A stretch of DNA of 64,000 bases from Aminobacterium sp. MB27-C1 (GTDB lineage: Bacteria > Synergistota > Synergistia > Synergistales > Aminobacteriaceae). The notes under the pieces were generated by a model. That model did no database searches. It was not told the origin of the DNA and was given only the letters and a program-made list of their open reading frames with translations. Both the position numbers and the translations under genes were made by a program. The stretch spans positions 2,170,001 to 2,234,000 of the forward strand of contig NZ_CP133089.1 of assembly GCF_030908405.1 (NCBI RefSeq), given 5' to 3'. Of this stretch, positions 36,478 through 57,705 are shown in pieces (position 1 is the stretch's first letter; each line of letters starts with the position of its first letter).

Positions 36478-36891
36478 ATGCTTGAAAAATTAGAAGGATC
36501 ACACGGTTGTTTCGTTTGTGATACAAGCGGCACAAACCCTCGTTCGCTAATGCTTGAAATTTATTGGGATGAAGAAAGACATAATACCGTTATTTCCTTT
36601 ACCCCCGATATTTCTCATTGCGGGTATGAGGGGGTTGTGCATGGTGGAATAATTGCCTCGATTTTCGATGACTCTATGGCATGGGCTATAAAAAAAGAAA
36701 CTGGGAGCTGGGCGGTGACTGCCACGTTCGAAATACGATATAAAATGCCAGTGAAAGTAGGTGAGACCTATACTTTTCAAGGGAAAATAGAGACAGCACG
36801 AGGAAAAAAGATATGCACATCTGCGCTGGTCAAAGATTGCGATGAAAAGATATTGGCAACAGCATCTGCCTTGTTTATATTAAAAATCTAA
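36478..36891 (+). CDS. PaaI-type hot-dog thioesterase
   Basis: 137 residues of the hot-dog fold. HGGIIASIFDDSMAWAI near residue 60 holds the catalytic-type histidine-glycine-glycine and aspartate. An N-terminal GCFVCDTSGTNP cysteine pair is seen in some members. Acts on an acyl-CoA or similar thioester. GAGGAG lies ten bases before ATG 36478. Its stop overlaps the convergent msrA stop by four bases. Confidence 0.83.
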   Translation: MLEKLEGSHGCFVCDTSGTNPRSLMLEIYWDEERHNTVISFTPDISHCGYEGVVHGGIIASIFDDSMAWAIKKETGSWAVTATFEIRYKMPVKVGETYTFQGKIETARGKKICTSALVKDCDEKILATASALFILKI

Positions 36892-37514
36892 CGACTGAGC
36901 ACAATATTTCTTAATCGTCTTTGTCCCTCTTCTGAAAGTTCTAACGAGGAAAGCTCTTTATCAAATGTTTCAATAGTTCCATATCCACCAAGGTAGCCAT
37001 TGACTCTCGAGACAGCGGTTGACTTAAGAAATTCCTCAAGAGAGGAATAACGATGCTCATATTCACGAAAAAGCTCTCGGTTGAGCCTGAGCCAGTATTT
37101 CTGATGATATGCTTCAGCTAAATAAAAAGTTTGTAAGGGAAGAATCTGCGTTTTGACAGATCGTCCTGTTTCTTTTTCTATTCTCTCTTTCCAAGCTAAG
37201 GCAGCCTTTTGTTGTTTCTCGTTCGCATAAAAAATAGCAGACATATATTGTCTTGAAAAAAACATGCGTGTGGGATCGTGTCCTTGGGAAAACACATCAA
37301 GCAAATGTTCATACGAAATTTGTTCAGGATCATACTCGACCTGAATACTTTCTGTATGATCTCCAATATTGTGATATGTAGGATTCAATGTCGTTCCACC
37401 GGTATATCCCACGCGTGTACTTACGACACCTGGAAGGATCCCAAACTGGGCATCTGGCCCCCAAAATCACCCTAAAGCAAAAACAGCCCAAGCCAATACA
37501 TTCAAGACTCCCAT
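36888..37514 (-). CDS. msrA: peptide methionine-S-sulfoxide reductase MsrA, selenocysteine form (in-frame UGA)
   Basis: Reduces methionine-S-sulfoxide. From ATG 37514 (AAGGAGG nine bases upstream) the frame reads MGVLNVLAWAVFALG, UGA (37467-37469), FWGPDAQFGILPG, then VGYTGGTTLNPTYH onward: the UGA falls exactly where the catalytic cysteine of GCFWG stands. All else is intact over 208 residues, including the Glu/Asp pattern and the YHQKYW motif. No cysteine exists anywhere in the protein, so there is no resolving thiol. Conventional callers start at GTG 37412 and lose the active site. Sec insertion is inferred; it needs selA, selB, selC and selD elsewhere. Confidence 0.85.
37432..37462 (-). 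promoter_or_regulatory. SECIS-like hairpin just after the msrA UGA
   Basis: In the mRNA, four bases past the UGA, GGGGG pairs with CUUCC (two G-U), GAU with AUC, CCCA with UGGG, leaving a three-base GUU apical loop, a CCA bulge and a single bulged G. The loop G-U lies 21-22 bases after the UGA, within the usual bacterial SECIS window. Confidence 0.55.
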
Positions 37515-37635
37515 TTTATCGGCCTCCTTTATAGCTACCTAGGCCTACCCCCCATCCCTATTTTCACTATAATACACTAAATAAACTATATTTTGTTAAT
37601 CTCTGCGCCAAGCACAACACTATTAATTTTTGGCA

Positions 37636-56397: not shown

Positions 56398-56468
56398 AGT
56401 GTTATATAATACTCGCCTATAAGAATTGGTGATGGAGTTCACCATAAATGCTATAAACGACAAAGCTG

Positions 56469-56510
56469 ATGACTCCTACAAGTGTAAGTGCTTGTAGGAG
56501 TCATTTTTGT
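56469..56510 (+). terminator. intrinsic terminator of the pst operon
   Basis: ATGACTCCTACAAG (56469-56482) and CTTGTAGGAGTCAT (56491-56504), loop of eight, then TTTTTG. It sits 71 bases past pstB. Confidence 0.9.
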
Positions 56511-56535
56511 ATTCTATATGAAGGAGTGTTTTCTC

Positions 56536-57705
56536 ATGGCTTTTAGTCTCGCTGTTATTTTATTATTCGCTCTACCAACAAATAAAATTTTTGAAACATT
56601 GAAAATGCCCGGTTTATTGGGAACCCTACTTTTAGGTATTGCTATAGGCCCATATGGTTTAGATTGGCTTCAACCTGAACTTCTAAATGTATCAGGAGAT
56701 CTAAGAAGAATCGCCCTCATTATTATTTTGTTGCGCGCAGGATTGGGAATAAATAGAGATGACTTGAAGCAGAATGGGATCGCAGCCTTAAAGATGAGTT
56801 GTTTGCCTGGTTTACTAGAAGGAGCAACCATAGCATTTATCTCAGTAAAGCTATTAGATTTTTCTTTAATTCAAGGAGGCATACTTGGTTTTATTCTTGC
56901 AGCAGTATCCCCTGCTGTAGTTGTCCCTTCTATGCTTAATTTAATTAAAAGTAAAATCGGGACAGAAAAAAGAGTTCCAAGTCTCATTATTGCAGGAGCA
57001 TCCATCGACGATGTTTTTGCTATCACAATGTTAAGTGTCTTTTTAGGTTTATATAGTGGAGCAAGCATAAATATTGGCATAAAAATATTGAGTATTCCAA
57101 TTTCCATATTACTAGGTTTCATGGTAGGTATTGTAGGTTTTGTTGTAGTACATATTTTTAAGAAATATCAGATGAGAGATACCCAAAAAGTCTTATTAAT
57201 TTTAGCTCTTGCCGTATTGATTTCCGAACTTGAATTTCTATTTAAAACCAAAATTGAAATTGCATCATTACTTGGCGTTATGACTATGGGGTTTATCATA
57301 TCGGAGAAAATACCTTCTGTTGGAGAACGTTTAGCCCAAAAACTTAACAAAATATGGATTTTTGCCGAAATCTTGCTTTTCGTCCTTGTAGGTGCCCAAG
57401 TAGACGTAACATTAGCGCTTAAAGCAGGAGGAGTAGGTATTGTTATAATTGGAATTGGATTGATCGGTAGGAGTATCGGCGTTCTTTTTTCTCTTTTGGG
57501 AACAAATCTCAATTGGAAAGAACGGCTCTTTTGCATAATTTCTTATTCCCCGAAGGCTACTGTACAAGCAGCTATGGGAGCAATACCGCTATCATTAGGG
57601 GTTGAGTCAGGAGATATTATCTTAGCTATAGCCGTATTATCTATACTTATTACTGCTCCATTAGGGGCCATCGGTATTCGATACTCCGCTAAAAAGCTTT
57701 TATAA
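56536..57705 (+). CDS. CPA1-type cation:proton antiporter
   Basis: 389 residues from ATG 56536, nine bases after AAGGAG. About 12 helices; the membrane core has LRRIALIIILLRAGLGINRDDLK near residue 70 and IAGASIDDVFAITMLSVFLG near 165, where the DD pair is the ion site of Na+/H+ antiporters. No C-terminal regulatory domain. Follows the pst terminator, so separately transcribed. Confidence 0.86.
   Translation: MAFSLAVILLFALPTNKIFETLKMPGLLGTLLLGIAIGPYGLDWLQPELLNVSGDLRRIALIIILLRAGLGINRDDLKQNGIAALKMSCLPGLLEGATIAFISVKLLDFSLIQGGILGFILAAVSPAVVVPSMLNLIKSKIGTEKRVPSLIIAGASIDDVFAITMLSVFLGLYSGASINIGIKILSIPISILLGFMVGIVGFVVVHIFKKYQMRDTQKVLLILALAVLISELEFLFKTKIEIASLLGVMTMGFIISEKIPSVGERLAQKLNKIWIFAEILLFVLVGAQVDVTLALKAGGVGIVIIGIGLIGRSIGVLFSLLGTNLNWKERLFCIISYSPKATVQAAMGAIPLSLGVESGDIILAIAVLSILITAPLGAIGIRYSAKKLL

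Follow-up and report, generated by a model that had tools for sequence, protein, structure and literature searches.

A predicted cysteine-free selenoprotein MsrA of the Clostridium oremlandii type in Aminobacterium sp. MB27-C1

Relationship to the MsrA of Clostridium oremlandii

The closest described system is the selenocysteine (Sec)-containing MsrA of Clostridium oremlandii (CoMsrA), a chain of 209 residues with one Sec and no Cys, in which the helical domain is essential for activity and glutaredoxin, not thioredoxin, serves as the reductant (PMC4333827, PMC4479559). The Grx1 tested as its reductant is itself a selenoprotein, with U at position 13 (PMC4479559). A Sec-MsrA is also listed for Syntrophobacter fumaroxidans (PMC1794560). 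In the case of Aminobacterium sp. MB27-C1, whose genome is one contig of 2,427,830 bp with 41.58% G+C (PMC11008193), 13 genes of known selenoprotein families were counted in the deep-Sep paper of 2025 (PMC12013277). Since MsrA is a known selenoprotein family, the gene described here is probably among those 13, and in principle it is already covered by such genome-wide selenoprotein counts. It lies in a stretch of 64,000 nucleotides (positions 2,170,001 to 2,234,000 of contig NZ_CP133089.1, G+C 39–44%), hereafter the window, in which a fluoride riboswitch (54.3 bits) was also found at 56419-56485 on the plus strand, directly before an ORF at 56488-57705.

We hold it as very nearly certain that the gene (Table 1) encodes a Sec-containing peptide-methionine (S)-S-oxide reductase of the 1-Cys, two-domain type of C. 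oremlandii, with SelB- and hairpin-dependent insertion of Sec16. In the Pfam search, the product matches PF01625 (PMSR) with 143.9 bits and PF20939 (MsrA_helical) with 34 bits, the cut-off being 23.7 in both cases, the latter family being, by its Pfam description, the selenoprotein MsrA helical domain. Moreover, the NCBIfam model msrA (TIGR00401) is matched above its cut-off. The original prediction had described a single TGA in the frame from ATG 37514, situated at the Cys of GCFWG, together with a good Shine-Dalgarno sequence and no other Cys in the product, and all of this was borne out: the only internal stop in the frame from 37514 to 36888 is the TGA at codon 16 (ALGUFWG), AGGAGG stands upstream of the ATG, and the number of Cys residues in the product is zero when the TGA is read as U.

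Table 1. Coordinates in the window of the Sec-MsrA gene and its features
Feature	Position	Strand	Evidence
Sec-MsrA gene, 208 aa + TAG stop, UGA = Sec at codon 16	36888..37514	-	Frame reading; PMSR 5.9e-42; MsrA_helical 2.5e-08; CoMsrA structures, E about 1e-60
In-frame TGA, selenocysteine 16, catalytic position of GUFWG	37467..37469	-	A single TGA at this codon in all 26 homologues
Shine-Dalgarno AGGAGG, 8 bases before ATG 37514	37523..37528	-	Sequence
Predicted SECIS-like hairpin: GAU / bulged G / CCCA / GUU loop / UGGG / AUC; starts 12 bases after UGA	37437..37454	-	Fold, pairs, compensating changes, synonymous conservation
Catalytic domain, residues 1-144	37083..37514	-	Pfam match and residue numbers compared with CoMsrA (PMC4479559)
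Tyr47	37376-37374	-	Numbering compared with CoMsrA (PMC4479559)
Glu55	37352-37350	-	Numbering compared with CoMsrA (PMC4479559)
Arg88-Gln89	37253-37248	-	Numbering compared with CoMsrA (PMC4479559)
C-terminal helical domain	36891..37082	-	PF20939 match at residues 160-196; limits from PMC4333827

Among solved structures, the best matches are near-identical MsrA chains that belong to one set (PDB 4LWJ, 4LWK, 4LWL, 4LWM, 4U66 and 4W8C), of which 4LWJ and 4W8C are named as CoMsrA (PMC4333827). The alignment to them, which had been proposed as a check, covers residues 7-205 without a gap and runs unbroken across both sides of the TGA. Sec16 in GUFWG, the absence of Cys and the C-terminal helical domain are common to both enzymes, Tyr47, Glu55, Arg88 and Gln89 are identically numbered, and the chains differ in length by one residue. 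The Sec-only enzyme lacking a resolving thiol that had been suggested is exactly the 1-Cys type of CoMsrA (PMC4333827, PMC4479559). However, the Aminobacterium enzyme comes from another phylum and its sequence has clearly diverged. The enzyme type itself has been crystallised before, from another anaerobe, and the Aminobacterium protein adds a clear new example. The canonical Cys MsrA (TIGR00401) shares the catalytic fold and the reaction, but has a catalytic Cys, further Cys residues in many members and no helical domain.

As had been anticipated for automated calling, a mechanical ORF under table 11 starts at GTG 37412 and comprises 174 aa without the active site. It could be argued from the mere existence of this ORF that a functional short protein (residues 35-208) is made, the upstream part being regulatory. 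Neither Sec16 nor the beginning of the catalytic domain would be present in such a protein, whereas the alignment to CoMsrA continues in one gapless piece from one side of the TGA to the other, and we give this reading almost no credence.

Conservation of the in-frame TGA in the phylum

A search of 188 genomes of the phylum gave 26 best matches with 45–100% identity, the Aminobacterium gene included, and each of them contains exactly one in-frame stop, which is a TGA. It stands at the same codon, in GUFWG, in the 25 genes extracted for base-level analyses and in the 26th (L096), which was read by eye from its translation. The other Synergistota Sec-MsrAs share with the window gene the SECIS-like hairpin and the helical domain, but several have an N-terminal extension, possibly a signal peptide or a membrane anchor, and a few contain one or two Cys residues; the catalytic Sec encoded by TGA is also a feature of the Sec-MsrA of S. 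fumaroxidans. Furthermore, dN in the coding sequence after the TGA is 0.23–0.34 among three congeners (0.23–0.30 for the window gene versus the two others) with dS saturated, and therefore the coding sequence beyond the TGA is under purifying selection. One further Sec-MsrA-like gene (L099, G074:C146), whose match begins at residue 33 and does not include the TGA region, is probably either a truncated copy or cut off by the end of its contig.

These data bear on whether the TGA arose from TGT or TGC by a nonsense mutation or a sequencing error, so that only a pseudogene, or a truncated protein from GTG 37412, remains. A single base separates TGA from either Cys codon, and the same genome holds an MsrB remnant, so that decay of Msr genes in this strain is possible. 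Nevertheless, the TGA is common to 26 homologues over many genera in an otherwise intact frame, purifying selection acts after it, and a conserved RNA element follows it (see below), which together make such an origin exceedingly improbable. Because the TGA recurs in independent genomes, a misread TGT or TGC at this codon can in practice be ruled out.

A tree of 58 proteins unites the window gene with its congeners (support 100/98); the long branch of CoMsrA lies close by, but this position is not strongly supported. A search with Cys-containing peptide patterns, which cannot reach TGA orthologues, recovered canonical MsrAs and Cys homologues from haloarchaea, and these proteins were used as a control. 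The latter (L022-L050) are 39–49% identical to the Aminobacterium Sec-MsrA, with a match spanning residues 10-178 or more in most of them, past the catalytic domain, and they fall among the Synergistota Sec forms (97/81), but on a long branch. Most of the degenerate relatives within the same bacterial family are more distant from the Sec-MsrA than these.

These degenerate relatives (L077-L085) form one clade and have a C-terminus of helical-domain length, while their active site reads ECFLC, SCFLS, GCFRR, GSFLR, GSFQD and similar. Some of the genes adjoin an S9-type peptidase gene and a ketopantoate-reductase-like gene. In a narrow motif scan of flanking genes, the latter was seemingly also present after the Sec-MsrA gene in L068-L070, and in some genomes the degenerate gene precedes the same ketopantoate-reductase-like gene as the Sec form does. 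Having lost FWG and sometimes the Cys but kept the two-domain length, they could perhaps be non-catalytic or differently acting MsrA descendants, a tentative reading, with most hosts possessing SelA. The idea that they arose when the Sec pathway was lost was not supported, since SelA is present in most of their hosts; it was not detected in two of them (G009 and G025).

SECIS-like hairpin and selenocysteine machinery

The folding energy of the region after the UGA is unremarkable in the Aminobacterium sequence (z = -0.10 for a 61-base stretch and -1.17 for the hairpin), and the case for a hairpin rests on comparison, not on single-sequence energy. Among the 25 orthologues, the greatest excess of synonymous identity is found at residues 22, 23, 25, 24 and 26, the top five of 162 codon sites, and codons 22-26 are the hairpin itself. 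The apical loop bases G24-U25 are invariant in the 25 sequences, and compensating changes occur at two pairs: in the window gene pair 23-27 has become AU instead of GC, and pair 19-31, the outer pair of the core, is GC in ten sequences, UA in nine and UG in one, with five unpaired, G19 being the bulged base in the window gene. In none of 500 shuffles was the covariation score or the percentage paired as high as observed, although related rows inflate this test. In addition, the codon for Gly25 is GGG in 24 of the 25 Sec genes, whereas GGC, GGT, GGG and GGA all occur in the 28 haloarchaeal Cys homologues. With a hairpin just 3' of the UGA and a G in its apical loop, as in a SECIS element, binding of SelB is predicted from the sequence.

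The original prediction depended on selenocysteine machinery in the genome, and the search for it recovered tRNA-Sec (73.2 bits; anticodon TCA according to ARAGORN), SelA (486 bits), SelB (362 bits, directly after SelA) and SelD (331 bits), the last carrying its own in-frame TGA in SGU. As no RNA element had been claimed, the finding of a SECIS-like element beside a complete pathway indicates that the prediction was too modest. Reading of UGA generally as another amino acid (e.g. Trp, as in code 4) or ordinary read-through would also leave the frame open, and an open frame alone does not tell which residue is inserted. However, the genome contains tRNA-Sec and the full Sec pathway, the TGA occupies the catalytic chalcogen position, and the genes of the window read as long, ordinary ORFs with code 11, so either alternative is hardly conceivable, and there is almost no doubt that the in-frame UGA specifies selenocysteine.

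Proposed reaction and significance for the strain

Both the incorporation of Sec and the methionine-S-sulfoxide reductase activity are predicted. Judging from the parts present, SelB with Sec-tRNA-Sec would bind the hairpin downstream of the UGA and insert Sec at residue 16. By analogy with CoMsrA, the selenolate of Sec16 would attack methionine-S-sulfoxide in a site shaped and protonated by Tyr47 and Glu55; methionine would leave, and, as a resolving Cys is absent from the protein, the oxidised selenium would be reduced by an outside thiol, most likely that of a glutaredoxin. The only glutaredoxin detected in the genome has a CPWC active site, unlike the Sec-containing Grx1 tested with CoMsrA, and we therefore only infer that it may act as the electron donor.

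The genome search detected this Sec-MsrA gene as the only MsrA gene. The only MsrB match corresponds to the C-terminal quarter in a short frame of 51 codons (44 aa from a TTG start; L087:1269-1599, near 1702784-1702876 of G000:C1), which looks like a decayed msrB, while both congeners have a full-length MsrB.

The Sec-MsrA gene opens no new category, as the enzyme type is already characterised. Nevertheless, it encodes a selenoenzyme that naturally lacks Cys, and since 26 relatives allow the UGA, the hairpin and the machinery to be compared, it is useful for annotation and for defining the constraints on a SECIS element within a coding sequence. Furthermore, as the Sec-MsrA is the only MsrA detected and MsrB is a remnant, the repair of methionine-S-sulfoxide by MsrA in this strain would depend on selenium.
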